Made by a program: the position numbers and the translations under genes
Origin: a virus
Direction: 5' to 3' (one strand)
Virus record (IMG/VR): IMGVR_UViG_3300025108_000058
Span: 1 to 56,849 of that record
DNA: 56,849 nt
Notes under the pieces: model-generated
What the model was told of the DNA's origin: nothing
The model's input: the letters and a program-made list of their open reading frames with translations, nothing else
Database searches by the model: none
Shown here: piece by piece, positions 16,023 to 56,132 of the stretch
Layout of the letters: each line of letters begins with the position of its first letter
Numbering within the stretch: the stretch's first letter is position 1

Positions 16023-16215
16023 TTGATGAGCCTTTTGCTATAGTCATGAATTCGTGTAAGTAGAACTGTGCTCTTTCATCCCATTGTGAAAAATCTTTCT
16101 CTTCGAACCATAATGCTAATGCATCAGTAGATGCTGCAATTTTCTCTAATGCTTTTACTTTTCTTTCTTCTAGTAATAATGCTTCTTTTTCTTGATCGGT
16201 TAATTTACCTGCCAT
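16009..16215 (-). CDS. Small acidic helical protein
   Basis: A 68-residue protein, rich in Glu, Lys and Ala, predicted by eye to be mostly helical (heptad-like LLLEERKVKALEKIAASTDALAL). No known family is recognised. It sits between two glycosyltransferase genes with a 14-base overlap downstream and a five-base gap upstream, which supports it as a real gene. It could be an assembly or regulatory partner of the transferases; this is speculation from position only. Confidence 0.6.
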   Translation of the reverse strand: MAGKLTDQEKEALLLEERKVKALEKIAASTDALALWFEEKDFSQWDERAQFYLHEFMTIAKGSSNDQA

Positions 16216-16220
16216 TTTTA

Positions 16221-17814: not shown

Positions 17815-17815
17815 A

Positions 17816-32133: not shown

Positions 32134-32991
32134 TTATATGTCATTTATATCTTTTACTACCTCTGTTCCGAATAATACAGCAGCTTTATTAAAGAATTTC
32201 ATAGATCCTTGTTGTAAAGCATTAATACCGTCAGGAACTAGATGTCCTAAAAGGTTTATATTAAAATTTGTCTTAACTACTCTATCACTTCCCTGTGATA
32301 GCTCAGTTGTTGTAGCATAACTATCAATCATTGCTCTAAAATTAAATCTTTCTGGGTCTCCCCAATAAGAATCTGATGCATAATTGATACTTTCTACTAA
32401 TTTATTCATCTGTTCTATATACTGTGTAAAGATTACGCATGAGTATACTATATTTACATAGTCTGGCATTACAACTCCTTGGTATTCTTTCAGTATAGAC
32501 CTGTTATTAAGTAAAGAAAATCTATCGTATTGATTTTTCCTACTCCATTTCTTTTCAAACACTCCAAACTGTGTAGGTAAGTTAGCATCCATCTTATTAG
32601 CTAACTCTCTGTTCTTCTCTACACTGTCTCTCTTAATCATTATTAACGGTAATTGTATTTTACCATTTCTATCTCTATAAAATCCTTCTTTCTGTACTGC
32701 ATGCCAACGTTCTGGTGAACCATATAGCACGGGAACATCTTTTTTAGCACCGTTTTGTAGTACAGATGGTTTGATTACATTATTAAAGTAGTAAAATATA
32801 GCTCCATCTATGTCTTTTAACCCTAGACTGAATCGTTTAGTTTCATCATCCTTTACAGATCTTTGCAATTCCCTTTTTTTAAGGTCTTGCACAGGCTGTT
32901 TGCTACCACTTGCTGGACCTCCTTGAAAAGGACTAATCGAATCTTGTGATATCTGTGATTGAGTCTTTGGTAATGGCTTATTATTTGGCAT
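32134..32991 (-). CDS. 15: Tail sheath stabiliser / tail completion protein, T4 gp15-like
   Basis: The core order fits T4 gp15: a VPVLYGSPERW strand (compare IRVPITYAS), LPLIMIKRDS (LPRINLHL), then PDYVNIVYSCVIFTQYIEQMNKLVESI (IKMIYELSIFTRYEDDMFQIVEQI), and finally TNFNINLLGHLVPDG (LTFEVNGWMYPP). I compared these from memory, so identity is not quantified. The N-terminal 45 residues are a polar Gln/Ser extension. gp15 caps the tail tube and joins it to the neck. Position right after neck-like genes 13 and 14 supports the call. Confidence 0.7.
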   Translation of the reverse strand: MPNNKPLPKTQSQISQDSISPFQGGPASGSKQPVQDLKKRELQRSVKDDETKRFSLGLKDIDGAIFYYFNNVIKPSVLQNGAKKDVPVLYGSPERWHAVQKEGFYRDRNGKIQLPLIMIKRDSVEKNRELANKMDANLPTQFGVFEKKWSRKNQYDRFSLLNNRSILKEYQGVVMPDYVNIVYSCVIFTQYIEQMNKLVESINYASDSYWGDPERFNFRAMIDSYATTTELSQGSDRVVKTNFNINLLGHLVPDGINALQQGSMKFFNKAAVLFGTEVVKDINDI

Positions 32992-33268
32992 ATTTTCTGT
33001 TTATATGCATTTTGTAAGCTCTTTTAAAACTACTAAACACTTTAAATAATTGTTCTAACTTTTCATCCTGTGGATACTTACGAGTTACCTCTTTAAAGTC
33101 TTCGTAAGACTCTTCTATATTTTCAGCAAGTGAAATTAAAGGTGTATATTTAACATCCCAGGTATATTGACCAGTTTCCTTGTTATATCCTGTTTGTTTA
33201 GTTTTAAAATCAGGACTATCTTGTTGCCAATCGTGCTCTTTTTCGCTAAGTATGTCTTTTATCTTCAT
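32981..33268 (-). CDS. Small protein with capsid-targeting-like leader
   Basis: I start the gene at 33268 (MKIKDILSEKEHDWQQ). The longer frame to 33334 would overlap the upstream gene by 61 bases and begin with an unlikely Cys/Arg-rich stretch. The 95-residue protein is charged and helical at the C-terminus. The first nine residues end in LSE and resemble the T4 capsid targeting peptide that is cut after Glu; see the finding on this signal. It overlaps the gp15-like gene by 11 bases. Function unknown. Confidence 0.55.
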   Translation of the reverse strand: MKIKDILSEKEHDWQQDSPDFKTKQTGYNKETGQYTWDVKYTPLISLAENIEESYEDFKEVTRKYPQDEKLEQLFKVFSSFKRAYKMHINRKYAK

Positions 33269-33273
33269 AATAA

Positions 33274-33771
33274 TTAATATTCTTCGTTCTGAGCAAAAGT
33301 TATACCAGTTTGCTCTCTTCTGGTCATATGACACTCTAAAATCAATGATACTGATGTACCAAATTGACTTCCATAGTCGGTTAAGTTGTAGCTCTTGTCT
33401 CTCCCCATAAATAATTGGTTCTCCTTAACGTTATCTACAATATAATAGTCTTCTTGCCAATTAAGTATATCCCCTACCTCAGGTACTACGCTTACTTCTT
33501 CTAAATCACGTCTTAGCAGTGCAAATTGAACATCTCTTTCAAGATCAGGTCCAAATTCATCTACTGCTATCACTTGATCACCTCTAGTTATAAGGCAATT
33601 GAGTTTTAACGGTTCTAAAAACGATTTTACTAGTCCTTCACCGTATATATTCACTTCAGTATCCTTTATACTAAACTTATAGTACAGTATCTCCTGTTCT
33701 ACTATGTCTTTTAGTAGTTCTCTGTTAATACCTACTAATAGGTTAAAGTCTCTGTTAGATCCAAATAGCAT
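33274..33771 (-). CDS. 14: Neck protein, T4 gp14-like (tentative)
   Basis: The 165-residue product has the order expected for a gp14-type head-completion protein: an N-terminal helix, EVNIYGEGLVKSFLEPLKL, a PDLERDVQFALLRRDL stretch, then PEVGDILNWQEDYYIVDNV. This last part recalls the EGD-hydrophobic turn followed by an aromatic/acid strand in T4 gp14. It is shorter than T4 gp14 (256 residues). Position between the gp13-like and gp15-like genes is the best evidence. It shares a base with the small gene upstream and is likely co-translated. Confidence 0.5.
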   Translation of the reverse strand: MLFGSNRDFNLLVGINRELLKDIVEQEILYYKFSIKDTEVNIYGEGLVKSFLEPLKLNCLITRGDQVIAVDEFGPDLERDVQFALLRRDLEEVSVVPEVGDILNWQEDYYIVDNVKENQLFMGRDKSYNLTDYGSQFGTSVSLILECHMTRREQTGITFAQNEEY

Positions 33772-34070
33772 TATACTTTCTCTATTGTTTGTTCACCTAT
33801 TTTAACAAGTTTTACGTTAGGATACTTTGACATTGCTGTGTTTTTTAATGATTCAAAGGCTTCCATAGCGCTTTTTTGTGTAATAAGTTTTATTTTTAAT
33901 GTTTCTACGTTCTCCATTGTACTATCTGCTACTGTTACTGTAGTAATACCTGGTAAAGCTCTTATTAAGTCAACTATCTGTGTCTTATCACTGCCATCTT
34001 CATACATTACTTGTACCATACCTTCATAAGTATTATACTGAACCTCGCTAAGTATCTTCATTAACTTCAT
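33771..34070 (-). CDS. Small alpha/beta protein in the neck cluster
   Basis: A 99-residue protein with a beta-alpha-beta layout (GMVQVMYEDGSD, IVDLIRALPGITTVTVA, TLKIKLITQKSAMEAFESL, VKLVKIGEQTIEKV) like a ferredoxin-type fold. The first nine residues, MKLMKILSE, match the leader pattern discussed under capsid targeting. It overlaps both neighbours by one base. No function is known to me; a head-neck assembly factor or a packaged protein are options. Confidence 0.55.
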   Translation of the reverse strand: MKLMKILSEVQYNTYEGMVQVMYEDGSDKTQIVDLIRALPGITTVTVADSTMENVETLKIKLITQKSAMEAFESLKNTAMSKYPNVKLVKIGEQTIEKV

Positions 34071-36120: not shown

Positions 36121-37713
36121 TTAGATTAGATTGTGATCTGATACAAAGATTTTACCGTAGAATTCTGGTCTGATCATCTTCTTAGCATATCTTGTCATAA
36201 GACCTTTTCTTGGTGTAAAAGTCTCTGGGTCATATACTAGAGGAGTCATCATTAATGGTACATATGGTGCATATACAGCTCCTGTTTCTAGGAATTGTGA
36301 ACCTCTGTATCCCATTAAGATAATGTTCTCAGTCATGTATGGGTTTTTGTATACTTTGAATCTGTTAGCAAAGCTACCAACTCTTTGTACTCCCATGTTA
36401 AATTCAGCCTGATCTCCATCAGTTGAAGCAGCATATCCTGGAATAGATTCTAAGATTGTTGCAATGTTTGGAGAACATACAAGGAAGTTTGCACCACCTC
36501 TTAATGTTTTTTGGTGAATTTTGTTAGATACCTTTTGGATTTTAGTTCCTAAAGTTTGGAACCATTGTCCTTGAGTATTGTAGAATCCTCCTGATCCAGC
36601 AGCAGAAGTAACGAATGCAGATCCGTTCCAGCTTTTGTTAGATTTTGCAGACCATTGGTCAGTAGTGTTAGCGTCTTGGATTAACATATCTAAGATCTCT
36701 AAATCGATCTCCATAGAGATATATTCAGATAATAAAGATGTTAATTCAGCTTCAGCATCAATACTGTGGTAAGCGTTAAGATCTTGAGAAAATTCTGGTG
36801 TCCATTGTGCTTTTAATTTTCTTGTTTTAGCAACAATTGCTTCACTAGATAATTTAACATCAATAGATGGAATAGAGATAGAAGTGTCAACTGCTCTTGA
36901 AGAATCAGCTTCGAAGTCTCCTCTATCGTTATCAACTGGCTGTTTGTGGTATATAATAGATCCAGTTAAAGAAGCATCTACAGTAGTGTCTCCTTTTGCG
37001 ATAACAAATGTTACATCGTTTCCAGATACTGAAGTATACTTTGGGTTAGTTACGTCAACAGAAGCAGATAAGATTCTAAAAGCTCTTACACCTTTTAAAT
37101 CAGCAGCTAATCCACTAAAAGATTTAGTAATCTTGTAGTAGTCAGCAGGATCAACTCCATCTTCATAAGATATAGAAGCAGAATCAGCAGCTACAGCAGC
37201 TTCTTCAACAGCAACAGATGCACTATTGATAGTGTATCCAAACTGTCCAGCTCCGTAAAGACCTCCTGAAGGATCAGCGTCTTTTACCATTTTTGTAGAT
37301 CCTTCTGTTACGTTACCATATAAATTTGATTGTGCTTCTCTTCCATTTCTAGTGTCTCCATATTTGAAGTCTAAATAAAATACAAGTCCTGAAGGTAAAT
37401 TCATTGGTTGTACAGATACGAAATCTTGTGATACGATTTGAGCGAATACTTTTCTTACTAATGGTAAGACAACACCAGCCCATTGTTCACCAGCGCCTGC
37501 AGAGAAAGATCCTCCACCAACGTTAGTTGTGTTTGCTTCAGAGACTACTTGTTTTGCTTGGTTTTCAAGAATCATTGCCATGTTATTCATGACTTTTTTA
37601 TCTTCAATACCTTCTAACAAACCAGATTTAGCCCACTTTTCAGCAAGTTTTGCAGAGTCTTCTTGTAAATTCTTGTAAGAATTAGAACCCTCTAATAATT
37701 GGTTAATTTCCAT
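36121..37713 (-). CDS. 23: Major capsid protein, T4 gp23-like
   Basis: The product (530 residues) has the gp23 core VLPLVRKVF...DFVSVQPMNLPSGLVFYLDFKYG (about 82-119), matching the 'IPNLIAFDICGVQPMNSPTG' region of T4. Near the N-terminus QVVSE (55-59) is followed by ANTTNVGGGSF, which is where the prohead protease would cut if the T4 rule holds (T4 cuts after Glu65). The C-terminal half has the expected LMTPLVYDPETFTPRKGLMTRY segment. It is translated just downstream of scaffold gene 22 and is followed by a strong terminator. Confidence 0.95.
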   Translation of the reverse strand: MEINQLLEGSNSYKNLQEDSAKLAEKWAKSGLLEGIEDKKVMNNMAMILENQAKQVVSEANTTNVGGGSFSAGAGEQWAGVVLPLVRKVFAQIVSQDFVSVQPMNLPSGLVFYLDFKYGDTRNGREAQSNLYGNVTEGSTKMVKDADPSGGLYGAGQFGYTINSASVAVEEAAVAADSASISYEDGVDPADYYKITKSFSGLAADLKGVRAFRILSASVDVTNPKYTSVSGNDVTFVIAKGDTTVDASLTGSIIYHKQPVDNDRGDFEADSSRAVDTSISIPSIDVKLSSEAIVAKTRKLKAQWTPEFSQDLNAYHSIDAEAELTSLLSEYISMEIDLEILDMLIQDANTTDQWSAKSNKSWNGSAFVTSAAGSGGFYNTQGQWFQTLGTKIQKVSNKIHQKTLRGGANFLVCSPNIATILESIPGYAASTDGDQAEFNMGVQRVGSFANRFKVYKNPYMTENIILMGYRGSQFLETGAVYAPYVPLMMTPLVYDPETFTPRKGLMTRYAKKMIRPEFYGKIFVSDHNLI

Positions 37714-37733: not shown

Positions 37734-38885
37734 TTATTGTTTAATAATACCGGCTAACATTTGCATTCTTCTAACTGTATCAGATACTTCAGCGATTACT
37801 TCTGGCTTACTTGCAGTAGTTCCAGTAGCTTTACTTGCCATACCTAATTTAGCTTTTGATTCTTTAATAGACTTAGCAGATTCTTTTTTACCTACTACAC
37901 TATCAGAAACAGTTTCAAATACAAGTTTAACTTCTTTTACGCTCTCAGCTTTATCAAAAGCAGCGATAATGTTAACTTTTTGACTTTCAGAAAGGTCGTT
38001 TGACTTGAAGATCTTGTTAACGTAAAGTAATTTAGAATTTAAAAGATTAACCTCATTAAGGTCTTTCTTTAAAGTTTCGATAGTTTCTAAAGCTTCTTGA
38101 AGTTCATTTGATTCTTCAGTTACTTCTTCTTCCATCTTTTTGTCATCTTTCTTACCTTCGTCTTTGTGGTCTTCTTTAGCCTCTTCAACGTTTTCGTCTT
38201 TGTCATCTTTCTTTGGAGCTTCGTCCATGTCTTTATCGTCCTTAGCTTCTGCAACTTCTTCTGAAGTTTCTGCTTCTAATTCTCTTAAAAGCTCATCTAA
38301 GTCGATTTCTTCTTCGTCTGGTGCATCCATAGCGTCCATATCATCTGCTGCAGGTTCATCACCTATAGCTTCGATATCTCCACCATCCATGTCATCAGCT
38401 GGAAGTTCTTCGCCGTGACCTCCTTCTTGAGCGATAATATCTCTTACTAAATCTTTGAACTGGTCAATAGATAATTTAGAAATATCTTCATCTCCGTCTG
38501 GCATATCATCCTCGGCTGGTTCGTCGATAGGAGCATCGTCTTCAGATTCTTCTGAATCATCCTCTGCTTCTTCTACTTCAGCTTCAGCTACTTCTGGCTC
38601 TTCTGCAATTTCTATTTCCTCTATTGCTTCATCTTTGTCGTCCTTAGGAGCTTCTTCGATAGTTTCATCTTTTTTGTCATGTTTAGGAGCTTCATCCATT
38701 TCCTTTTCGTCTTTCTTTGGAGCTTCTTCAATAGTAGTTTCTTCCATTTCTTGAAGTTTAGCAGCTAACATGTCTTTAAGATGAGGTGTCAAAGATTCTT
38801 CTAAAGCTTCCTTAGCGTTGGCAATAGCGGCTTCTCTTACAGATTTAGCTTCAGCAATAGCTTGCTTGAATAAATCTTTACTCAT
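37734..38885 (-). CDS. 22: Prohead scaffold/core protein, T4 gp22-like
   Basis: The protein has an N-terminal helix with QAIAE at 9-12, a very acidic middle in which a (D/E)EAP-(K)DDK phrase repeats several times (about residues 50-130), and a C-terminal helical domain. That domain (LNEVNLLNSKLLYVNKIFKSNDLSESQK then FDKAESVKEVKLVFE) is what I know from gp22 homologues. Position between protease 21 and capsid 23 is the T4 order. Many hydrophobic-x-Glu sites would let the protease clear it after head assembly. A promoter octamer and two hairpins precede it. Confidence 0.85.
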   Translation of the reverse strand: MSKDLFKQAIAEAKSVREAAIANAKEALEESLTPHLKDMLAAKLQEMEETTIEEAPKKDEKEMDEAPKHDKKDETIEEAPKDDKDEAIEEIEIAEEPEVAEAEVEEAEDDSEESEDDAPIDEPAEDDMPDGDEDISKLSIDQFKDLVRDIIAQEGGHGEELPADDMDGGDIEAIGDEPAADDMDAMDAPDEEEIDLDELLRELEAETSEEVAEAKDDKDMDEAPKKDDKDENVEEAKEDHKDEGKKDDKKMEEEVTEESNELQEALETIETLKKDLNEVNLLNSKLLYVNKIFKSNDLSESQKVNIIAAFDKAESVKEVKLVFETVSDSVVGKKESAKSIKESKAKLGMASKATGTTASKPEVIAEVSDTVRRMQMLAGIIKQ

Positions 38886-39009: not shown

Positions 39010-39588
39010 TCAGGCTCTTAATATATCGTTAAGTATATTGTCTAATTTAGCAAACTTATTTGGTTTTTTTAACCCTTCTTGTAAAGCTACAGGGTTCATA
39101 AAAGCACCGTGTGTGGATGGATTAGATACAAAGTCCCAGCATACTAATTCAAAGTCTGGTTGAACCTCTAATTGTCCTTCGTTAGTTTGTTTAACAGAAC
39201 CTGTACCTCTAGATGAGATACCTATAGTATGTCCTGCTTTAATAATTTCTTTTACTATATTACCGGCTGGTGTGTTTAATAGTTCTACCTTACCCATAAG
39301 GTCGTTTCCTTTCCAATATAGCTCTTTTACTATGTGAGATGCGTTCTTAAGAGAGACAACAGGAGACTCAGGATGATCTAGTTCTCCGAATGCATTACCT
39401 CTTTCAACAAACTCTTTAACGTATTTAGAAGCTTCTCTTTCTAAAATATCTTTTGAATATGTTCTACCGTTTTGATTTTCCGCAACTGCTCTTTGCATAA
39501 CACCCTCAACTTCATATACTCCTGGTCTTTCTTTAGACTCTCTAAGTACTGATTTAAATGGGGTAACGTCTACTAATAGTTGTGCCAT
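39010..39588 (-). CDS. 21: Prohead core protease, T4 gp21-like
   Basis: The 192-residue product carries QNGRTYSKDIL (40-49), FGELDHPESPVVSLKNASH (His72) and GHTIGISSRGTGS with the nucleophile Ser125 or 126. These are the His and Ser motifs of the gp21/S77 family of prohead proteases. The enzyme cuts scaffold and capsid proteins after Glu in a hydrophobic-x-Glu context. It lies directly upstream of the scaffold gene, as in T4. The C-terminal 30 residues (GLKKPNKFAKLDNILNDILRA) look like a removable tail. Confidence 0.92.
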   Translation of the reverse strand: MAQLLVDVTPFKSVLRESKERPGVYEVEGVMQRAVAENQNGRTYSKDILEREASKYVKEFVERGNAFGELDHPESPVVSLKNASHIVKELYWKGNDLMGKVELLNTPAGNIVKEIIKAGHTIGISSRGTGSVKQTNEGQLEVQPDFELVCWDFVSNPSTHGAFMNPVALQEGLKKPNKFAKLDNILNDILRA

Positions 39589-39592
39589 TCTT

Positions 39593-41317
39593 TTATAAGT
39601 CTTTTCTTAATTTAAACTCTCCTTTTTCGTTTATACCGAATATAGTTTCTTTTGGAGCTGCTTCTACAGGTGCTTCTTCTTGTCTTAAGTTATCAAACTT
39701 AGCAACTTTTACTTGAGGTATTTGTACGCCTTTCATAAATCTACTACCTCCTAAGTGTCTTGAATCTTTTACAAAAGCGCTTTCTATAGCAGGAGCTAAA
39801 AATCCTCCTACTTTAAATCCTTCTTCATTTTGTATTTCACCTACTTTTTTAAATACTCCTTCTAATCTATCTTTTTGTTTAGCATAATAACTTTCGATAT
39901 CTGTTACTATGTTCTGAAGATCATTTAGTACTACTGTCATACCTTTATAGTCTCCATAAGTATCAGCCATTGCAGCTAAATGATTAGTAGCAGCTTCGTT
40001 TAGAGTATCTTTTGCTAAAGATTCTTTTACAATCTTTTTTATAGCTTCTTTGATTTTCTCTTCTTTATTGTAGAAAGAAGTATATTTTGCAGTATTATTA
40101 CCAGATTTCTTTTTAGCTGCTCTTGCTGCATCTCTTGCTGCTGCTGCTTTAGCTCCAGCTTCTTTATGTCTGTTAGGATTTTGTCTGTCTAATTCTTTTT
40201 CTCTAGCAGCAAATTTGTCTAATCCTGCTCTTGCAGCCTTAATATCTGCAGTGCTAATTTCTTGTTGTGGTTCTTTACCCATTGCTTTTTTAATAGCTTT
40301 GTCTTTAGCAGCCATATAATCATCTCCGTCAACATCTCCGTCCCCGTCATGATCTTTACCTTTCTTTTCAGAAACGCTTTCTTCTTCTAAACTATCATAA
40401 TTAACTGATACATAGTTTTCAAATTCTTCTATAGGATCTGCTCCACCATATAGATCATCCATATGAGTTCTTAAAAAGTCTTTAAGTATCCCAGCAGTAA
40501 CTTCAGGAAACTTTCTTCTTAAAATATCTATAGCAGCATTAGCAGCTTCTTTTCTTTTTAAGTGGTACTCTTCTTGATCCATTTCTTCTGCTTCCTTTAC
40601 TTTAGTGTAATTGCTTTCTTTATCTTCTTTTTCATTACCGTGTCTATCGATGTTCATTACTTCATCAGGTTCTTCATCTATAATGGCTTTCATTGCATTT
40701 ACTTTACCGGCTGTTTCTGCAGCATCTTCTCTTTCCATTTCTCTTAATCTATCAGCAGCAGCTTGTAATCTACCTACATCTATTCCTAGCTTTTCAGCTA
40801 AGTCATCCATTTTGCCTTCTTTTAGCATTGTTTTAGCTTCTCTTAAATCAGCTTTCTTTAGACCATTAAATACATCTGGTTTATCTGATACTGGTTTCAT
40901 TTGATCGTTCTTATCTACGTTCTTATCATTACCAGCAAGTATATTAAGGTAGTGCATTGGATCCTTGTCTAAATTTGCTTTAGCTTTATTTAGAGCATCA
41001 TTGTATTGATCCATATTAATATTAGCACCTGCGTGATATTCAATTTTAGCTTCTGCGAATTCATGTCTAATACCTCTATCTAAGGCTTCTAGACTATATG
41101 GCAATTTCATAGCATCAATCTTTTCCTCTACTACTATAGGTTTAACCTCTTCGAAAAGAAGTCCTCTATTCTTAAGAATTTGTACTGTATCTTTAAATCC
41201 GTTCCACTGTGTAATATGTTCAGGGTAACCAAGTCTCATTTGTCTTACAAATTCTGATTTAGCCATCTTACCTTCGTTGACGGCTCTGTACTTTTCTGTT
41301 ACTGTGTATGTTCTCAT
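39593..41317 (-). CDS. Large prohead-region protein with EF-hand-like loop
   Basis: A 574-residue, highly charged, helical protein. Residues 322-334 (DHDGDGDVDGDDY) form a calcium loop of the EF-hand/dockerin type. The rest has Ala/Lys-rich coils (AAAARDAARAAKKK) and several hydrophobic-x-Glu junctions, for example TLNE-AATNH (441), LKE-GKMDD (167) and FAE-AKIE (89). Position between portal and protease is where T4 keeps small core genes 67 and 68, so an internal prohead protein is likely, but no homology to those is claimed. The start overlaps no gene; the stop of the 77-residue gene is three bases away. Confidence 0.6.
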   Translation of the reverse strand: MRTYTVTEKYRAVNEGKMAKSEFVRQMRLGYPEHITQWNGFKDTVQILKNRGLLFEEVKPIVVEEKIDAMKLPYSLEALDRGIRHEFAEAKIEYHAGANINMDQYNDALNKAKANLDKDPMHYLNILAGNDKNVDKNDQMKPVSDKPDVFNGLKKADLREAKTMLKEGKMDDLAEKLGIDVGRLQAAADRLREMEREDAAETAGKVNAMKAIIDEEPDEVMNIDRHGNEKEDKESNYTKVKEAEEMDQEEYHLKRKEAANAAIDILRRKFPEVTAGILKDFLRTHMDDLYGGADPIEEFENYVSVNYDSLEEESVSEKKGKDHDGDGDVDGDDYMAAKDKAIKKAMGKEPQQEISTADIKAARAGLDKFAAREKELDRQNPNRHKEAGAKAAAARDAARAAKKKSGNNTAKYTSFYNKEEKIKEAIKKIVKESLAKDTLNEAATNHLAAMADTYGDYKGMTVVLNDLQNIVTDIESYYAKQKDRLEGVFKKVGEIQNEEGFKVGGFLAPAIESAFVKDSRHLGGSRFMKGVQIPQVKVAKFDNLRQEEAPVEAAPKETIFGINEKGEFKLRKDL

Positions 41318-45939: not shown

Positions 45940-47010
45940 CTATTTGATTCCACTCCTAAATACTTGAGGTGCTAAACCATTTTTAAGTGATATAGGACTT
46001 GAAAATGTTTTTGGATTTTCTCCTATATAAGTCATTAATTGTTCAGGAGCCAGTGATAAGTAATCTCCAAAACCAGTGCTTGTATCAACAAATATAAAGT
46101 GTGCTACTCCTTCTCTTTTAGCATATGTAGCAGCATATACTTTCTGTAGTGCTACTCTTAATCTATTAGAGTCAGTACAATTTTCTGGTGTAATATACCT
46201 TTTAACGTACTCTTCATCGTAAACTTGATTAAGTAGTTTATTAAGTTGTTCTACACTTTTTTTATAGTCAACATCTTCTCTATCTTGAGATATATTAAAT
46301 AGAGCAGGCATAAAAGAGTCTGGTCTATTAGTGTCTAATTGTAAAGCTTCTAAAGTGTCTATTATTTCGGCTCCACCGGTAAATGAATGATCTCTTTTAC
46401 CCAATCTAGCTGCAGATCCTTTTACCTCTAAGTACTTACCTCCCCAGTCTAAATCTCCTTTTTCCCCTTTCATCATTTTAACATCGCCTATGAGTGTTGA
46501 TAAGCCTATTTCAGCTTTACCTACTCCTCTTCCTCCTTCTTGGCCACCGATATTAATAAGAGACTTAACAGAATTACCTGAAAGCTTACCGTTAAATTTA
46601 CTGAGTATATTTCCTTTTACACCTAGATCAGAAAAGTTTATTGTCTTTTTAATGTAGAGCATATAGTTTTCTAAGTCATCATTATCAGCTAATACGTTAA
46701 ATACTCTCTGAGGAGCATCTCCGGATTGAAGAGTATTGTCGTCTATGTTTTGAAGTTTTATATAATCAAAGAAAGCATTCTGATTAGGTCTGTTTCTAAT
46801 GTATCTTCTTAGATACTGTAAAGCTTCTTGATCGTCTGATATAGAGGTAATAAGAGATATTACATCGTCGGGAGTAACTGGTTTATTCTTATCTGTTGCT
46901 TCGCCTATTATACTATCAAGCAGAGCTCTATCTTCAGCATTATCCATTGATGGAGTACCTGTTTTAGACCTCCAAGCCCACTCTGTGTATAGTTTATCTG
47001 TAATGTTCAT
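45940..47010 (-). CDS. PD-(D/E)XK nuclease-like protein next to terminase
   Basis: The 356-residue protein has, in order, GRGVGKAEIGLSTL (Glu167), GDLDWGGKYLEVKGSAARLG (Asp186, Glu195-Val-Lys197) and several conserved-looking Arg/Lys residues. This Glu ... Asp-x(8)-Glu-x-Lys layout fits the PD-(D/E)XK endonuclease core. The N-terminus (LYTEWAWRSKTGTPSMDN) is of a type found in proteins beside marine phage terminases. No small terminase is otherwise visible, so it may help in packaging initiation or end processing, or act as an independent nuclease. It is coupled to the upstream gene by a TAATG junction. Confidence 0.6.
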   Translation of the reverse strand: MNITDKLYTEWAWRSKTGTPSMDNAEDRALLDSIIGEATDKNKPVTPDDVISLITSISDDQEALQYLRRYIRNRPNQNAFFDYIKLQNIDDNTLQSGDAPQRVFNVLADNDDLENYMLYIKKTINFSDLGVKGNILSKFNGKLSGNSVKSLINIGGQEGGRGVGKAEIGLSTLIGDVKMMKGEKGDLDWGGKYLEVKGSAARLGKRDHSFTGGAEIIDTLEALQLDTNRPDSFMPALFNISQDREDVDYKKSVEQLNKLLNQVYDEEYVKRYITPENCTDSNRLRVALQKVYAATYAKREGVAHFIFVDTSTGFGDYLSLAPEQLMTYIGENPKTFSSPISLKNGLAPQVFRSGIK

Positions 47011-47654
47011 TATGCGTCTGGTTCTTCTCCTGCTTCAAAGTCTACAGGTTCATCGGATAAATCAGCTCCTCCATCATCTACTGCTGGAAAGTCATCTCCT
47101 CCTGCATCGTCTCCTCCTTCTGCTCCTCCTCCAGCATCTGCTCCAGGAAAGTCTCCTCCGCCTCCGCCACCGCCTCCGGTGTCTACGTCAGCAGGTTCTC
47201 CTTCTCCAGCTCCTTTCATTGGTGACTCTCTATAAAGTAATTCTAATTTATCTAATGCTTGCTGATAATCATCTATTTTATTAATATAGTATCTTTTACC
47301 TTGTATTTGAGCTTGAAATCCATCTCCCATCCATTTAAGTATGTAGTCTTGACCATTCTTTAGATTTACTCTAAATGAAGTTGGTCTAGGAGAAACCCAG
47401 TCTATTGACTCGACGAACTCTTTAAATTGTTCGGTTTGTAGTTTTACTAAAGCTGCTTTTAAGGTAGGAAATTTACCTAGTATTTTATCAGTAGCGTCTT
47501 CTAGAACTGTTCCTTGTGGAGCTTCCATATCTGGTTCTTCCTCTGGTATAGGTTCTTCTTCAGGTTCTTCTTCGTTTAATTGATCTAATAAACTTTCTTT
47601 AAGTACCTCTTCGTACGCCTCTAGAATGATATTTTCTAATTTAGCTTTGTTCAT
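47010..47654 (-). CDS. Acidic protein with capsid-targeting-like leader
   Basis: I start at 47654 (MNKAKLENIILEAYEEVLKE). The longer frame to 47696 overlaps the end of the upstream gene by 41 bases and begins with a basic stretch that is the same DNA as that gene's Lys-rich end. The leader is helical and ends in IILE-A. A Glu/Pro-rich segment, a compact domain (about 40-140, with FRVNLKNGQDYILKW and FQAQIQGKRYY strands) and a Gly/Asp-rich tail follow. A core or head-packaged protein is proposed. The family is not recognised. Confidence 0.6.
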   Translation of the reverse strand: MNKAKLENIILEAYEEVLKESLLDQLNEEEPEEEPIPEEEPDMEAPQGTVLEDATDKILGKFPTLKAALVKLQTEQFKEFVESIDWVSPRPTSFRVNLKNGQDYILKWMGDGFQAQIQGKRYYINKIDDYQQALDKLELLYRESPMKGAGEGEPADVDTGGGGGGGGDFPGADAGGGAEGGDDAGGDDFPAVDDGGADLSDEPVDFEAGEEPDA

Positions 47655-47655
47655 T

Positions 47656-50600
47656 TTACTTCTTTTTCTTTTTATATCCTTTGTGCCAATGTTCATTAGA
47701 TGTTTTAATCTCTAACTCACTAACTGGTATATCTTCTACTGTTTTGCCGCTTTCAAATAAAACGTCATAATGAGTAACTACATGTTTCTCTCCTTCTTTA
47801 ACTAGAGTATGTTTCTCTGGTATACAATTACCTTTTCCATACTTCTCATGTACTACTTTAGCAGCACAATCGTGAGCAAATCCAGGTCCAGATTCTTTTA
47901 CTTCTTGATCTGCCTCAGTATCTGGTGCTTTTGCAACGTAGTTAAGTAGTTTTAGTACTCTCTTTATATTTCCATTAGCTGTAAAATCAGTAGGTTCTTT
48001 ATCGTTTATTTGATTAAAAAGAGATAGAAGTGCAGTAGCCATTGATTGTGCATTCTTTACATTAGCATTATAACCACGTAAGATAGTATCTGGTATTGGT
48101 CTTGCTTCTGCTTCATCTATATCATCATCATCATAGCCTGGAATATCGTATATACCCATACCGTCTAATTCTGAATTGGAAAATTCAGCACTTAGTCTCT
48201 TTCTAAATTCTGGTACACTAGTAATCCATCCGTGTAGTGCTTCTACTGCACCTGGATTATCTTCTATAAATTCTTCGAATCCACCACTATATCCTATAGC
48301 TCCAAATAAAGTTTCTAACTCCCTAGAGCTTTCTTTGATTGTATCTTCTTCTTTTACTATTTTACTTCCTTTAATTCTACTATGTGCTATACCGTATACA
48401 TCTCCGTTTCCGAAATCTACTGTAGCTTGAGTATCTGATATTTTAGTTACCTTTCCTTTTTTACCGTCTTTAGTAAGTGTATCTCCAACTTTTACTTCAG
48501 ATACTACTTCTTGCATATAGTCTTCTAGATTTTTATCTACTGGTAATTGAAATTTATCTGCTAAAGCTAATACTATTTCTGCTGCTGCGTCTCTCTCTGA
48601 TATATCATCATTGTTAGACATATTTTGTACAGCTTTTAATACATCATCGAAATCTCCTCTTCCTTCATCTAATTCTTGATCTCTACCTGTTCCTGCTATT
48701 TTATCATCTTGTTTAGCTAATAGCTCTTTATATTTAGCGTTTATTTGTTTTACTTTTTTGATAAACTTTATTCTCTTAGGATCATCTTGAGGTAATTTAT
48801 TCATAGAAGGAGCTAAATCCTTAATGAATTTTCTACCTTGAATAATCTTATCCATCTCAGAATTTTCTTTTATACCTTCTAATTGTAAGCCATCTATTTG
48901 GTCATACCTTACTTCATGCTCTTCTCCATCTTGATCTACACCAAATACAGTATCGTCATTCCACATATTAGCATTATCGTCGTTACCATTTTTAGGATTA
49001 TAGATAATTAAATACTTATCATCAAAAGTTCTAATCATAGCATCGTCTGATTGTCCTAGGTAAGCTAATAATTTTTGTTTTGTATACTCTTCATTTACAT
49101 TTGTACCTCCATGTCTAGCCATTGCTGCTTTAAAGTCTCCTTTATATAGCTGCTTTACTATTTTACGTCCTAACATTTCTAATTCGTCAGCATCAAGAGA
49201 GTGTGGTCTATCAAATCCATCTAAATAATTTTGAGCCATTACTCCGTAGTCAGCAGGATCTATAACGTCTTCTATACCTTCATTATAGTCATAGTCGTCA
49301 TTATTAGCATTTTTTATCATATCAGCTATCTTTGCAAGAGTAGCTTTATCCTTATCTGACAGTCTATGACCTAAGTGAGTAGGTTTTCCTCTGTCGTCAA
49401 ATTTTTGTTCGATATCTTGTTCGTTTATTTCTTGCATCTGTTTAAAATATTTTGTCATCTCGTTTTTAACGAGCTCTGTATTTATAAAAGGTTCACCTGA
49501 AGGTTTAACTCCTACATCTGATAAAACGATGTCTTTATCGTTTGCCAAGAATATTAGTTTGTTTCCATCTATTTGAAATCTGTATGATACCTCTGAGTCA
49601 TTCTTATATATAATATGTACTGTAAATGCTTCTGGTACGCTAGGAGATAGTGCTGAGGAGAATACTTTTTTAATTCTAGCTTTAGATACTTCGTCTCCTG
49701 AAGCATGTACTGCTTGTACGATTGCTTTTCCGGCTTTACTAGCTATGATAGAAAGATGCTCTTTACTTAAGTTTACGTTGTCTTGTTCTTTTAACTTATT
49801 ACCAGCTTTAACTGCATCTTTATGTGCTTTAGAATTACCATGAGAAGCTTTTTTCCCTGCTTTTCTCTTAGCATTTATATTAGCCCAAAGTCCTTCTTTA
49901 TTTATCTTCTGACCAGCTTTAACTGCATCTTTATGTGCTTTAGAATTTTTATGAGCAGGTTTTTCACCTCTAGCTCTTTTAGCTCTGATATTAGCCCATA
50001 GCCCTGGTCTTTTCTTTTCTCCTATATAGTCTTTTTCAGCTTCTCTATCTGCTTGATAATCTGTTTCTTCTTGATCTCCAGCATTCATAAGTAAGTTACC
50101 TAACTCTTTATCTTGTTCCATTTTAGGATTAATAAGAGTAATAGCATTTGGATGTGTGTCTCCTCTACCAATATGTAGTTCGTAGTCTTGTCCTTCTTTA
50201 TATTTATATTTAAGGTAGTCAATTAAATACTGAGTAGCATCCAAATCGTACCCTAAAGCAAAGACATCGTCTTGACCTTCATTAAAAGTATCATCATAGC
50301 TTTTAGGTTTTGTTCCTTTAGCTTTTGCTATTGCAGCATCTATCTTATTAAGCATATCTCCATACTTATCTGCTATTGGACCTCCTTCTGGTTCAGCTTC
50401 CTGCTCCATATCTCTCATTACCTGGTCTCTTTTGATTTGAAGTTTGGATAATATTGCTGAGTTTTTAGGAGATGCTGTTTTGTTATCTTTCTTTTTAGCC
50501 ATCCTAGATTGTAATGCTCTTAATTTCATAAGAACAGGATCGTTAATATCTTTAGTTTCGTCTAAATCGTGGCTTTTATCTACAACAGAAATACCATTAG

Positions 50601-51069
50601 CTTCTAAATCCATAGATAAGTCGTATATAAACTCTGCTGGATCTGAGTCAGGGTTATAGTGATCGTGATCAGTAGTTGCTGATGTAAAGTTAAAGTATAC
50701 AATTACATTTCCGTCTCCATCATCATCGACTATGTCAGTACTTACGTACTCACTGTCTATATTTTGATCTATAACTTGTATAGCTTTTTTATAATCTTTT
50801 CTAGATACTTTTATATAAGTTGTTTGATGTGGACCTTCTGTTTTAAGATTTACGTTAACTCCTTTCTTAGCTAATTTCTCTGCTTCTTCAGAGTCTTTAG
50901 TAACTACCATTCCTGCTTCTTGTTCTTTTAATTGATTCTCAAGAGATTCCTTAAGTAATTCTAATTTTTTCACTGTTTTGTTATCTTTTTCCACCGCTTT
51001 ATTTTCTCTGTAACACTTAAGAGTGTATTCGCATTTAGATAAACGATCTTTAAGTTCTTTGTAATTCAT
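47656..51069 (-). CDS. 1137-residue multi-module prohead/internal protein
   Basis: The protein is a string of small modules rather than one fold. These are an N-terminal coiled coil (1-50), an alpha/beta part with SRKDYKKAIQVIDQ and VDDDGDGNVIVYFNF (55-165), two basic GLWANIxAKR...KAHKDAVKAG repeats (about 355-427), a beta part (475-535), helical DNA-binding-like parts, an SH3-like VKVGDTLTKDGKKGKVTKI unit (859-905) and a Cys/His-containing unit at 1063-1130 with a Lys-rich end. Nearly all module borders carry hydrophobic-x-Glu (LDE171, NKE392, INE550, VNE660, IKE735, LDE802, VSE858, IKE913, IDE986, VKE1059). This suggests a polyprotein for the head protease. Confidence 0.65.
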   Translation of the reverse strand: MNYKELKDRLSKCEYTLKCYRENKAVEKDNKTVKKLELLKESLENQLKEQEAGMVVTKDSEEAEKLAKKGVNVNLKTEGPHQTTYIKVSRKDYKKAIQVIDQNIDSEYVSTDIVDDDGDGNVIVYFNFTSATTDHDHYNPDSDPAEFIYDLSMDLEANGISVVDKSHDLDETKDINDPVLMKLRALQSRMAKKKDNKTASPKNSAILSKLQIKRDQVMRDMEQEAEPEGGPIADKYGDMLNKIDAAIAKAKGTKPKSYDDTFNEGQDDVFALGYDLDATQYLIDYLKYKYKEGQDYELHIGRGDTHPNAITLINPKMEQDKELGNLLMNAGDQEETDYQADREAEKDYIGEKKRPGLWANIRAKRARGEKPAHKNSKAHKDAVKAGQKINKEGLWANINAKRKAGKKASHGNSKAHKDAVKAGNKLKEQDNVNLSKEHLSIIASKAGKAIVQAVHASGDEVSKARIKKVFSSALSPSVPEAFTVHIIYKNDSEVSYRFQIDGNKLIFLANDKDIVLSDVGVKPSGEPFINTELVKNEMTKYFKQMQEINEQDIEQKFDDRGKPTHLGHRLSDKDKATLAKIADMIKNANNDDYDYNEGIEDVIDPADYGVMAQNYLDGFDRPHSLDADELEMLGRKIVKQLYKGDFKAAMARHGGTNVNEEYTKQKLLAYLGQSDDAMIRTFDDKYLIIYNPKNGNDDNANMWNDDTVFGVDQDGEEHEVRYDQIDGLQLEGIKENSEMDKIIQGRKFIKDLAPSMNKLPQDDPKRIKFIKKVKQINAKYKELLAKQDDKIAGTGRDQELDEGRGDFDDVLKAVQNMSNNDDISERDAAAEIVLALADKFQLPVDKNLEDYMQEVVSEVKVGDTLTKDGKKGKVTKISDTQATVDFGNGDVYGIAHSRIKGSKIVKEEDTIKESSRELETLFGAIGYSGGFEEFIEDNPGAVEALHGWITSVPEFRKRLSAEFSNSELDGMGIYDIPGYDDDDIDEAEARPIPDTILRGYNANVKNAQSMATALLSLFNQINDKEPTDFTANGNIKRVLKLLNYVAKAPDTEADQEVKESGPGFAHDCAAKVVHEKYGKGNCIPEKHTLVKEGEKHVVTHYDVLFESGKTVEDIPVSELEIKTSNEHWHKGYKKKKK
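49789..49899 (-). repeat. GLWANI...KAHKDAVKAG unit, copy 2
   Basis: Codes for about residues 391-427: GLWANINAKRKAGKKASHGN then SKAHKDAVKAGNK. Tandem to copy 1. Confidence 0.8.
49900..50007 (-). repeat. GLWANI...KAHKDAVKAG unit, copy 1
   Basis: Codes for about residues 355-390: GLWANIRAKRARGEKPAHKN then SKAHKDAVKAGQK. The unit is very basic and looks like a nucleic-acid-binding peptide; the two copies differ at a few residues only. Confidence 0.8.
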
Positions 51070-52875: not shown

Positions 52876-53457
52876 TCACTCTATATGCTTACGCATAACT
52901 GTTGTGAATTCTTTTAAGTCTTTAAGTATTTTATCTTTAGTTTCTTTATTCATACCGCCCCAATCTTCAATAGCTCCTTGTTCAGTAACAAATGTATGTT
53001 TATCGTTAACTGAATCAAGTACCCAGTTTTCAATATCCTTTACTACCTCTTTAGCATTACCTTTAATCATCCTCTGTTCATACTGTTTGTATAATCCTGC
53101 TTTTTTAAGGGAATGTTCATACTCTACAACACAAGGGTCAAAACAAAAACCATGTATCTTATACATTTTTTTAGCTAACCAGTGCTCCATAGGACCATTA
53201 CATTTAGGGCACCTAAGAGGCATTCTTAATGCTTTTTTTGCAGCGTCTAGCTTAGTAATGTTCTGTTTAATTCCGTTCTTAATAGTCCACTGTTTACCGC
53301 TTTCTTCCCATATGTCTCCTTCTATATGTTTTATAGAAGTTTTTCGGTAACCGGCTTGTACTTTAACTCCAGAAGTGAAATCTTTATTTACTAAATTTCT
53401 TACTCTCTGAACGTCGCTTTGTTTGAACTCTTTTTTTAATAATGTTTCTTTACTCAT
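52876..53457 (-). CDS. Cys-rich, probably zinc-binding protein
   Basis: The 193-residue protein is mostly helical and charged, with CPKCNGPMEHWLAKKMYKIH then CFDPCVVEYEHSLKK in the middle. The two Cys pairs plus His fit a treble-clef or zinc-ribbon site. In T4-like phages proteins of this kind sit near packaging genes, but I cannot name it. It overlaps the HAD gene by 8 bases and its stop lies next to a promoter octamer. DNA or RNA binding is the simplest idea. Confidence 0.6.
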   Translation of the reverse strand: MSKETLLKKEFKQSDVQRVRNLVNKDFTSGVKVQAGYRKTSIKHIEGDIWEESGKQWTIKNGIKQNITKLDAAKKALRMPLRCPKCNGPMEHWLAKKMYKIHGFCFDPCVVEYEHSLKKAGLYKQYEQRMIKGNAKEVVKDIENWVLDSVNDKHTFVTEQGAIEDWGGMNKETKDKILKDLKEFTTVMRKHIE

Positions 53458-53992
53458 AACCTAACTCTTTCAATCCTTTTAAGGCATCGCTTATATCTCC
53501 TTTTCTAACTCTAAATGCTATACCTCCTTTAGCTTGCCATTCTTCTATGTTTGACGGTTTATCGTCGATTAATATACTGTTTTCGTTTGCGTAATTTTGT
53601 TTACTTTTAGAATAAGCAAATATAGTTTTTGGTTTAGGGTTTAATTTATTTCTTACCCATAGGTTTTTACCCAATCTTGATGAATCATGTCTGGAAGGAG
53701 AGGTTAATAATTTAGGACTATACTCCTTAATAAAGTCCCATAGTACTTTTCCTTTTGGCATCCAGTCCATTCCAACCCAGAATTTAACTCCTACTTTTAC
53801 ATCTATTAAGTGCCAAAATGCTTCTAATCCAAATTCTTTTTCGTACTCTTGAGGATGTTTACCTGTAAAGTGTTCAAAACGCTTTTCAAAATTTGTTAAA
53901 ACTCCATCCATATCACAGTATATTTGATAAGGAGGTTTTACTTTTTCTTCCGGAAGCGGATATGCTTCTAATAAATCTACTAATTTTCCCAT
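53450..53992 (-). CDS. HAD nucleotidase-like protein with capsid-type leader
   Basis: The protein has IYCDMDGVLTNF (DxDGV nucleophile motif) at about residue 24, LLTSPSRHDSS (motif II) near the middle and SILIDDKPSNIEEW (motif IV) near the end. This layout is that of 5'(3')-deoxyribonucleotidase-like HAD enzymes. Lys at KNLWVRNKL fits motif III. The leader MGKLVDLLEAYP, with LLE-A at residues 7-10, is the pattern found in several proteins here and like the T4 capsid targeting peptide. It may dephosphorylate host or phage nucleotides; packaging into the head is a hypothesis. Confidence 0.7.
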   Translation of the reverse strand: MGKLVDLLEAYPLPEEKVKPPYQIYCDMDGVLTNFEKRFEHFTGKHPQEYEKEFGLEAFWHLIDVKVGVKFWVGMDWMPKGKVLWDFIKEYSPKLLTSPSRHDSSRLGKNLWVRNKLNPKPKTIFAYSKSKQNYANENSILIDDKPSNIEEWQAKGGIAFRVRKGDISDALKGLKELGYE

Positions 53993-53997
53993 AACCT

Positions 53998-55209
53998 TTA
54001 TTGATTTTTTATTTTATCTTCCCAATTGCGGAAAGTAATATTACCTAATGTATAGGCTTCTTTTTCTATCTCTACTAATTCTTCATCTTCATTGGTATTT
54101 GTAGTCCCGTAGTTTTTTAATCTACCTTCTACGTTTTGAATATGGTGAACCATTTCATGAGTAAAAGATCTGAGTACATCTTTAGGGTGTCTGCCTTCGG
54201 TATATAATACTACTTCTTTTAATTCAGGGTTATAATAAGCTGTTCTACCAAATACACTAGAAGCTTCTGCTATGTCTTTTTTTATTTTAATCTCCGGTAA
54301 AGGAGTAATGTTTAGTTTTTGATCTAACATATACTCTAATATAGACCCCATAAAAGGTGTGAAATCGAAATCAGATTTAGCAAACTCATTAGATATACTC
54401 ACTCTAATATGATCTTGCATAAATTTAACTGCTATATTGTCACTACCTATTTGATTTTTTATTCTCTTATATAAGGTAATTAAGTGAGCTCTGTCTTTTG
54501 ACTTCATAGCTGATCTAGGAGCTATGTGTGTACCAGATGTACCTTCAACAACAGACTCTTTTTCAGAAACAAATATCTCAGTTAATACATCTTCTAACTT
54601 TTGTTTCATTTGTTCTGATACTATACTTCCTTTTAACATATTTAATATTTTTAACATTTCGTCGCTAGATAAACTTTTAGGAAAAAAGTCTCTTACCTGG
54701 TCTAAATTACCGCTAAGTATAGCTTTTCTAAAGTTTGTTGCTCTAACATTATTACTATCGTTTGAAGTAACTGATAATCCTTTTACGTTTGGTGTTTTCT
54801 TAAAAGCAGAAATTCTTCCTAAATCTCTAAGATCATCTTTTTCTCTAATACCTGCTACAGCATAAAATTCTTCATCATTATGTAGTGCTGCATAGTCTCT
54901 AGCTAAAGTCATTGGATTACCTTCCTCGGTAACTATTTCTATATTAGTTAGATATTTTTTGTAAATATTCCATATAGCAGCTGATTGCTCTTTATTGATT
55001 CCGTTTCTTTCGTTTCCTCCTATAAAGATGACTACCTTATCAACCTTTTCTATCTTATCAAATCTTTTGTCTAATACATTATCTCCAGCTTGTTTATAGT
55101 TATCTAACCCGTAAAGTTTGCCTTTAATAGACCCGTCTAATAACCTTTGGGCTATTTCGAAATGTCCTCTGTGAGGGGGTTTAAAAGCTCCTGGGTATAG
55201 TGCTATCAT
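53998..55209 (-). CDS. Nucleotidyltransferase fused to a HExxH metallopeptidase-like domain
   Basis: Residues 1-165 form a nucleotidyltransferase of the HxGH class: YPGAFKPPHRGHFEIA (11-16), a FYAVAGIREKDD loop and SVTSNDSNNVRATNFRKA (the S-x-T-x-R box near 146-161). After a helical linker (LEDVLTE, IFVSEKESVVE) comes a second domain with DIAE-ASSVFGRTAYYNPELKEVVLY and RSFTHEMVHHIQNVEGR. HEMVH (351-355) is a zinc-protease site, with acidic EELVEIEKEAY as a possible third ligand. The IAE-A site at 315 could let the prohead protease separate the two. It starts by an ATGA overlap. Confidence 0.7.
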   Translation of the reverse strand: MIALYPGAFKPPHRGHFEIAQRLLDGSIKGKLYGLDNYKQAGDNVLDKRFDKIEKVDKVVIFIGGNERNGINKEQSAAIWNIYKKYLTNIEIVTEEGNPMTLARDYAALHNDEEFYAVAGIREKDDLRDLGRISAFKKTPNVKGLSVTSNDSNNVRATNFRKAILSGNLDQVRDFFPKSLSSDEMLKILNMLKGSIVSEQMKQKLEDVLTEIFVSEKESVVEGTSGTHIAPRSAMKSKDRAHLITLYKRIKNQIGSDNIAVKFMQDHIRVSISNEFAKSDFDFTPFMGSILEYMLDQKLNITPLPEIKIKKDIAEASSVFGRTAYYNPELKEVVLYTEGRHPKDVLRSFTHEMVHHIQNVEGRLKNYGTTNTNEDEELVEIEKEAYTLGNITFRNWEDKIKNQ

Positions 55210-56132
55210 GCTAAGAATGATTGTAAGTTAGAATCTATTTCTCTAGGAGTGTTACTAACAAGTTTAGAGTTAAAAACAGGGCTAAATAACATTTCAGCTA
55301 TATTCTCTAAAACTTCTTCTTCTCTCTTAACTGCTTTTTCTTTACTAGTTCTATAACTTTTAAGTTTAGCAGTCATCTTATCATCTCCGGGTCCTACTCC
55401 ATTTTTTTGATACCAATCTTGAAAATATTTTTTTAACGTTCTATCTTCACTATAATTATCTCTATCATAATCCATATGAGACGTTGCATTAACAAACTCC
55501 TGATTTTCTTCAGCAGATAGTTTAATTGGGTTTCTGAATGATGAACCGTCTATCTTATTTTCTTCAGAATATCTTTGTAAATAGTCTTTGATACCCTGTG
55601 CTCCATTTTTAGCAGCTGTATCAAATCCTTTAATTTCTTTCTCAAATCCTGGTCTTGCATTTACAAATAAAGAAAAATTACCTTTAGTCATCTTAGAATA
55701 ATCTTGTATTAATTGATAAACATTTCTCCAAGTAGAAAACACAGCTGAACCAGGTACATTTCTTTCTCTTTTAAAGTTAGAAATATATGCAATCATAGGG
55801 TGAGTGTACACCATTACCATGTATACGTTAAATCCACTCGAAATAAGATCTTTTATCTTTTTGGGGTTACTAGCAGTTGTATCCCAAACAAAAGATTTCT
55901 TATTATCTACGAGAGACTGAGCTTCTTGGTCCGCTGCTCGAGTTGCTGGACCTAGCTTGTTGTATGCTGGATGGTCTGGATTCTCCACGAACTTGTCTGG
56001 ATTGACTAGGGGAAGAGATTTGAGGTCTAATTGCTGGAGTAGATGTGTTTTCCCTGCTCCAGACCCCCCTGCCATTACTATTACCTTCGGGCCTGCCGTA
56101 GCTTCTAGGATTAGATCTGATAGTTTTATCAT
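55206..56132 (-). CDS. P-loop kinase, zeta-toxin-like, with capsid-type leader
   Basis: The leader MIKLSDLILE is ten residues and is followed by ATAGPKVIVMAGGSGAGKTH, the Walker A of a P-loop kinase (22-30). WDTTASNPKKI then VYMVMVYTHP come next, where zeta-toxin kinases keep their substrate loop and second strand. The remaining residues are helical and charged. Zeta kinases phosphorylate UDP-GlcNAc, but that activity cannot be shown here; related phage kinases can target other molecules. The first 230 coding bases overlap, in another frame, the end of the lipoprotein gene. It is linked to the next gene by an ATGA. Confidence 0.7.
   Translation of the reverse strand: MIKLSDLILEATAGPKVIVMAGGSGAGKTHLLQQLDLKSLPLVNPDKFVENPDHPAYNKLGPATRAADQEAQSLVDNKKSFVWDTTASNPKKIKDLISSGFNVYMVMVYTHPMIAYISNFKRERNVPGSAVFSTWRNVYQLIQDYSKMTKGNFSLFVNARPGFEKEIKGFDTAAKNGAQGIKDYLQRYSEENKIDGSSFRNPIKLSAEENQEFVNATSHMDYDRDNYSEDRTLKKYFQDWYQKNGVGPGDDKMTAKLKSYRTSKEKAVKREEEVLENIAEMLFSPVFNSKLVSNTPREIDSNLQSFLA

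Follow-up and report, generated by a model that had tools for sequence, protein, structure and literature searches.

A mosaic protein from the head gene block of a T4-like phage is a probable precursor of internal head proteins

The virus record IMGVR_UViG_3300025108_000058, from a marine T4-like phage, encodes a modular protein that is probably processed by the phage head protease. The window analyzed is the whole 56.8-kb virus record (56,849 nucleotides), and the gene in question lies on its minus strand at positions 47656-51069. It is an intact open reading frame (ORF) with an ATG start and, as stated in the initial annotation, encodes a protein of 1137 amino acids (aa), with a mass of 127.8 kDa. 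The annotation also proposed that this protein is a polyprotein cut by the head protease, and our analysis of the sequence supports the proposal: module borders lie at hydrophobic-x-Glu motifs (Φ-x-E, defined as [LIVMF]xE), Glu is favored over Asp, the hydrophobic preference is confined to the P3 position, a Peptidase_S77 protease and a capsid protein with the same motif are present, and modules are transferred, split and fused at these sites. Cutting at module borders by the head protease is the best explanation for these features and is likely, and we consider it probable that the chain is the precursor of about 14 internal head proteins whose pieces are kept as cargo. In the proposed mechanism, the chain would be a precursor polyprotein of a T4-type prohead core and would enter the prohead whole, possibly through its conserved N-terminal helical module. 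The activated gp21-family protease would then cut after the Glu of [LIVM]-x-E at linkers and set free some 14 small proteins (6-14 kDa), which would remain with the packaged DNA and be ejected into the host alongside it. Recombination at the linkers would let phages trade single cargo modules, since a module needs only flanking cut sites to be loaded and released.

The 1137-aa protein belongs to a mosaic family. Scanning IMG/VR for relatives identified 74 loci, most of which share the N-terminal module (aa 1-52), module 6 and the C-terminal module (aa 1057-1132; modules are numbered from the N-terminus). The interior varies, with the same modules found in other order, number and company, and full-length relatives are 400 to 1566 aa long. 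This reordering, gain and loss agrees with the initial description of a chain of dissimilar small modules. Borders were taken as the ends of local alignments among relatives, defined without reference to the motif, which gave 148 non-redundant borders, and every 40-residue window was shuffled as a null model. Φ-x-E is found within 5 residues of 95 of the 148 borders compared with 31.8 ± 5.0 in shuffled windows (z 12.7), so the association of motif and border claimed earlier is real. Control patterns in the same windows gave 23 for Φ-x-D (35.5 expected), 40 for E-x-Φ (31.9), 35 for Φ-E (31.8), 69 for polar-x-E (65.0) and 48 for Φ-x-x-E (31.8, z 3.4). Asp is commoner than Glu in the family proteins (10.2% vs 8.8%), yet Glu is favored at borders, and hydrophobic enrichment around border Glu residues is clear at P3 only (48% vs 26% elsewhere).

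Border motifs could alternatively stem from chance in Glu-rich linkers or from a nucleotide recombination signal. The modules clearly recombine, and the total number of motifs in the 1137-aa protein is close to the shuffled expectation (27 vs 21.4 ± 3.8, z 1.5), so a list of motifs by itself proves nothing. The shuffle statistics at borders nevertheless exclude composition and chance. P3 at borders is V, L, I or M and P2 and P1' vary, twelve codons for L/I/V/M/F are used at P3 in line with the overall codon usage of the genomes, and no conserved nucleotide context was found around border motifs. Diverse codons and the lack of a nucleotide pattern point to selection on the peptide and not to a DNA recombination site. 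An origin by chance or at the DNA level is thus largely refuted and highly improbable.

Within the 1137-aa protein, 9 of 18 homology breaks lie within 3 residues of a Φ-x-E compared with 2.8 expected by circular shift (p 0.006). The ten tripeptides listed in the initial annotation (LDE171, NKE392, INE550, VNE660, IKE735, LDE802, VSE858, IKE913, IDE986 and VKE1059) all occur at those residues, but NKE392 has Asn at P3 and is not a hydrophobic-x-Glu motif. It separates two tandem GLWANI repeats and is unlikely to be a cut site. The list was also incomplete, as four Φ-x-E motifs at real borders had been missed (LKE49, FNE264, IGE351 and LKE428).

Modules are exchanged, found alone and fused at Φ-x-E sites. 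Module 6 ends with Φ-x-E in 20 of 22 marine alignment rows despite unrelated sequence after it, and in 9 of 10 rows of the immuto type its tail reads IAE, ISE, INE or LNE, after which the next module is one of several. In front of the C-terminal module stand LDE, MDE, IDE, LEE, VEE, MSE, MRE, VKE and others, and the modules upstream of it are unrelated. Module 5 also occurs as a separate gene: L020:4185-4463 consists of MKKSELINAIKEVLAE followed by both GLWANI repeats, representing module 5 alone behind an N-terminus resembling a capsid-targeting sequence (CTS), and similar stand-alone versions with CTS-like starts are found in loci L066, L024 and L025. Module 4 corresponds to the complete 76-aa gp011 of Cellulophaga phage phiST, encoded amid a run of short genes, which speaks for an independent function of this module in the infected cell. 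The gene following the polyprotein gene (47010-47696, minus strand; 228 aa, or starting from an internal Met) encodes an acidic, Gly-rich protein with the CTS-like start MNKAKLENIILE↓AYEEVLKE, also given as MNKAKLENIILEAYEEVLKE (arrows mark putative cut positions). Flavobacterium phage immuto has this domain attached to the C-terminal end of its polyprotein, gp191, via SKSELKEIMLEAYIEVLQE, and the alignment, at 42% identity, continues through this linker. The start of the gene therefore corresponds to inter-module linker sequence. The downstream gene holds modules 3 and 4 in L025 and module 3 only in L066, between tandem Φ-x-E sites. A second carrier of modules is the 574-aa gene next to the protease gene (39593-41317, minus strand), whose homologues hold shared modules between Φ-x-E sites, namely module 7 and one more module common to the polyproteins. 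The 574-aa protein itself has a DHDGDGDVDGDDYMAAKDKA segment that appears EF-hand- or dockerin-like by eye, and both immuto gp191 and cyanophage mosaic proteins have segments of the same kind.

The polyprotein gene is part of a T4-type head block that lies on a single strand throughout. The downstream order is the 228-aa gene, a 356-aa gene, the large terminase, the gp20 portal, a 284-aa gene, the 574-aa gene, the protease, a scaffold-like protein and the gp23 capsid protein. The presumed cutter is a prohead serine protease of the T4 gp21 family (Peptidase_S77; 39010-39588, minus strand; phrog_207 5e-51, PF03420 1e-33), encoded 8.1-8.7 kb downstream of the polyprotein gene. It is present in 15 of 25 family-bearing contigs, and the other ten stop within about 8.5 kb downstream of the polyprotein. 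T4 gp21 cleaves after L/I-x-E (PMC9026906). The gp23-type major capsid protein (36121-37713, minus strand) has a probable maturation site at VSE59↓A60, and V[AS]E↓(A/Q) is found near residue 59 in 12 of 12 capsid proteins, comparable to the 65-residue propeptide of T4 gp23 (PMC9026906). In the T4 CTS, Asp at the cut position prevents processing but not targeting (PMC9026906). CTS-like starts, ending in Φ-x-E after about 7-20 residues, are found in stand-alone module proteins and in neighboring genes. In a comparison chosen post hoc, 14 of 26 head-region ORFs carry Φ-x-E at residues 8-17 compared with 2 of 30 elsewhere in the window (Fisher p 0.0002). Non-cargo ORFs of the family loci, tried as a negative control for the border test, were enriched as well (30/58 vs 15.8), possibly because neighboring head genes are also protease substrates. 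Mosaic tail proteins from the window's own phage group were consequently chosen as a clean control and show no enrichment (3/30 vs 3.0).

These observations also bear on the possibility that the protein is a modular component of the virion, or an injected protein, and remains intact at least up to its entry into the host, with Φ-x-E marking flexible linkers for another reason or being cut by another protease after injection. Such behavior would resemble polyvalent proteins, which are multidomain and mosaic like the family described here, are thought to be injected with DNA and have been likened to polyproteins with predicted processing (Iyer et al., 2017; PMC5512222). Some of them are transferred unprocessed (PMC5512222), and cleavage in our case is predicted from sequence. 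A linker mark of other origin would not readily account for a motif that requires Glu and not Asp with a hydrophobic residue at P3 only, that composition-matched shuffles fail to reproduce, that is missing from the borders of tail mosaics and that recurs at the capsid protein and CTS-like sites of the same genomes. Polyvalent proteins furthermore contain known enzymatic domains and embedded metallopeptidases, whereas the modules here are very small, show no relation to known domains and would be cut by a separate head protease with a recognizable site. Pfam and PHROGs searches found no embedded metallopeptidase and no recognizable enzymatic or DNA-binding domain in the 1137-aa protein. Because the pattern at Glu and P3 is strict and a head protease is encoded in the same gene block, we regard an uncut protein of the polyvalent type as decidedly unlikely.

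The released pieces probably stay in the head as cargo. The T4 internal proteins IPI, IPII, IPIII and Alt lose a leader to gp21 after L/I-x-E, are packed with the DNA and are ejected (PMC9026906, PMC3012670). They are small, variable head proteins in a size range similar to the products predicted here (49-122 aa, 5.9-13.6 kDa), and the stand-alone modules likewise carry CTS-like leaders. Each T4 internal protein has its own gene and its own CTS, whereas here a single chain links many of them, with ends in common. Although its operation resembles that of the T4 internal proteins, the system does not simply belong to that group, as it lacks an individual CTS for each product. Cutting would be the same, and only the fate of the fragments would differ, if the protein were a core or scaffold component like T4 gp22, gp67 and gp68, with modules serving as assembly or size-determination units and fragments mostly leaving the head so that the DNA has space. 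In T4, core proteins are cleaved into several pieces, most of which exit the head (PMC9026906). They share with our protein a core-type neighborhood among head genes, several Φ-x-E motifs per protein and the expectation of multiple cuts (PMC9026906), and the N-terminal helical module and many acidic modules also fit a core component. In contrast to one conserved T4 scaffold, the family consists of distinct domains, at least one of them confidently folded, that are exchanged between phages; close relatives differ by swapped, duplicated or missing modules, which would be unusual for an assembly core. A phage of another type encodes module 4 as a gene of its own, PHROGs and Pfam searches gave no match to T4 gp22, gp67 or gp68, and the window encodes a separate acidic scaffold-like protein at 37734-38885 (minus strand). 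We therefore hold a shredded core to be unlikely. The separate scaffold-like protein, whose function is assigned from position and composition, has the conserved start LFKQAIAE↓AKS and is very rich in Φ-x-E; dense motifs of this kind would be expected to lead to cutting into many peptides, as in T4 gp22. In the SPN3US/phiKZ group, gp245-type proteases cut head proteins after x-x-Glu; these proteins are ejected, and long propeptides are cut several times (PMC10052503). Each precursor there gives one mature protein once its N-terminal propeptide is removed, the SPN3US motif is A-x-E, and no string of independent modules has been described.

Several observations weigh against the proposed precursor of internal head proteins. 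No product or virion protein is on record for the family, and we infer cleavage, head location, and the retention and ejection of fragments. About one third of borders have no Φ-x-E within 5 residues, and 14 of the 27 motifs in the 1137-aa protein are not at borders, so that this short motif is not enough to determine what is cut. The C-terminal module contains five inner motifs (VHE1075, IPE1085, VKE1092, LFE1106 and VSE1118) that are conserved in most relatives and are either shielded by folding or also cut. The protein has no classical N-terminal CTS, its first Φ-x-E being at residue 41. Enrichment at borders was replicated in cyanophage mosaic proteins (26/62 vs 11.3, z 4.8) and in immuto-type phages (19/50 vs 11.5, z 2.5), in support of the proposal, but it is modest in the latter and less specific in the former, with other Glu patterns reaching z 3-4. 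Searches for module functions in Pfam, among solved structures and in PHROGs gave only PHROGs of unknown function, with no Pfam match above cut-off for the 1137-aa protein.

Structure prediction gives no compact fold for the whole chain. The full-length AlphaFold2 model, built from a 15-row alignment, has a mean predicted local distance difference test score (pLDDT) of 49 and a predicted template modeling score (pTM) of 0.24. A single compact fold spanning the sites, named in the initial annotation as a finding that would speak against a polyprotein, is not seen in this low-confidence model. 11 of 13 junction Glu residues lie in stretches below 50 pLDDT, as do 61% of all residues, and the model accordingly indicates only the absence of a predicted compact fold. 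Module 6 predicted alone (36 rows) reaches a pLDDT of 84.6 and a pTM of 0.73 and consists of a helix, five or six strands and a helix. Foldseek returned no significant match for the full-length model and no significant PDB match for module 6, which has one viral match, an uncharacterized 580-aa phage protein (E 6e-7). T4 IPI* is described as strands with flanking terminal helices (PMC3012670), but no structural match of module 6 to IPI* was found and the likeness is one of wording only.

The 14 modules, all on the minus strand, are delimited as follows. Module 1 (aa 1-49, 50923-51069) is helical, present in most relatives and a possible targeting part; it ends at LKE49 with a homology break at 48. 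Module 2 (aa 50-171, 50557-50922) ends at LDE171 with a break at 170 and is placed elsewhere in L014 and L020, while module 3 (aa 172-264, 50278-50556; ends FNE264) is also found in immuto gp191 as well as in the downstream gene of L025 and L066. Module 4 (aa 265-351, 50017-50277; ends IGE351) matches phrog_23411. The basic repeats noted in the initial annotation are present in module 5 (aa 352-428, 49786-50016; ends LKE428), which contains two GLWANI repeats, has a pI of 11.1 and would likely bind DNA. The confidently folded module 6 (aa 429-550, 49420-49785) ends at INE550, with MQE547 nearby. Module 7 (aa 551-660, 49090-49419; ends VNE660) also occurs in the L097 homologue of the 574-aa gene, and module 8 (aa 661-735, 48865-49089; ends IKE735) in a separate 532-aa gene of L042. 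They are followed by module 9 (aa 736-802, 48664-48864; ends LDE802) and module 10 (aa 803-858, 48496-48663; ends VSE858). Module 11 (aa 859-913, 48331-48495; ends VKE907/IKE913) contains the SH3-like unit suggested earlier, for which SH3/KOW-like strands are predicted at 859-907, though at low confidence only. Module 12 (aa 914-986, 48112-48330) ends at IDE986 and module 13 (aa 987-1059, 47893-48111) at VKE1059. The C-terminal module 14 (aa 1060-1137, 47659-47892; GPGFAHDC...) is found in nearly all relatives and is common to cyanophages. The earlier suggestion of DNA binding is plausible for one or two modules only; others may serve in counter-defense or host take-over.

Cyanophages encode related mosaic proteins. 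P-HM2 PHM2_164 and P-TIM68 gp159 share GPGFxHDC-like, GL(W/Y)ANI and DxDGDxD modules with Φ-x-E between them. Such proteins are usually shorter, lie in another part of the genome and are annotated as 'possible cytitidyltransferase' or hypothetical. Prochlorococcus phage P-TIM68 gp159 (L112:4289-7309), a 1006-aa hypothetical protein, is an apparent counterpart with many basic modules separated by Φ-x-E. True cytidyltransferases adjoining the cyanophage mosaic proteins begin with the CTS-like MKKFSAFLTE↓ or MKSFGQFLTE↓, and proteins of the cytidyltransferase type have been detected in cyanophage virions (PMC10665884, PMC9602691). One cyanophage member is matched by 365 annotated phage records. 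The closest cultured relatives of the window phage infect Flavobacterium, from which we guess a Bacteroidota host.

Polyproteins are characteristic of RNA viruses and retroviruses. We found no published head-protease polyprotein of internal proteins in the open-access library searched, the closest systems being polyvalent proteins and the T4 internal proteins. We lean slightly towards the view that marine and freshwater T4-like phages possess a true cargo polyprotein, in which many small injected proteins, each set between head-protease sites, form an open chain that recombines. If so, a DNA phage capsid protease freeing many packaged proteins from one chain would be an added packing strategy, and phages could gain new host-directed functions by inserting a module between a pair of cut sites, in any one of several carrier genes. 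This would account for the class of mosaic proteins labeled 'hypothetical' in hundreds of marine phages, many units of which may act on host defenses or transcription at the start of infection. It would also provide a simple rule, splitting such proteins at hydrophobic-x-Glu into testable units, and point to a natural way of getting several proteins into T4-type heads.

Further genes around the head block, between 32981 and 56787, have CTS-like starts and may all encode head-packaged proteins, for example with MKIKDILSE↓ (within 32981-33334), MKLMKILSE↓ (33771-34070), MGKLVDLLE↓ (53450-53992) and MIKLSDLILE↓ATAG (55206-56132). The last of these is directly followed by a Zeta-toxin-like P-loop kinase (PF06414, E 3e-10) that is possibly packaged and injected. 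The protein encoded at 53998-55209 combines a nucleotidyltransferase-like N-terminus and a domain with a metallopeptidase-like HEMVHH, with Φ-x-E between them; its immuto counterpart gp182 (907 aa) has further domains, and similar proteins have been reported in cyanophage virions. Farther away, 623-18670 holds a long run of ORFs that by eye are glycosyltransferase-, methyltransferase- and radical-SAM-like (CNFKCSYCG in 11723-13180) and apparently function in glycan making or decoration. The fibre-like protein at 19743-21548 ends in SDERLKDNVSNI... and by eye resembles the S74 intramolecular chaperone of phage tail-fibre ends.

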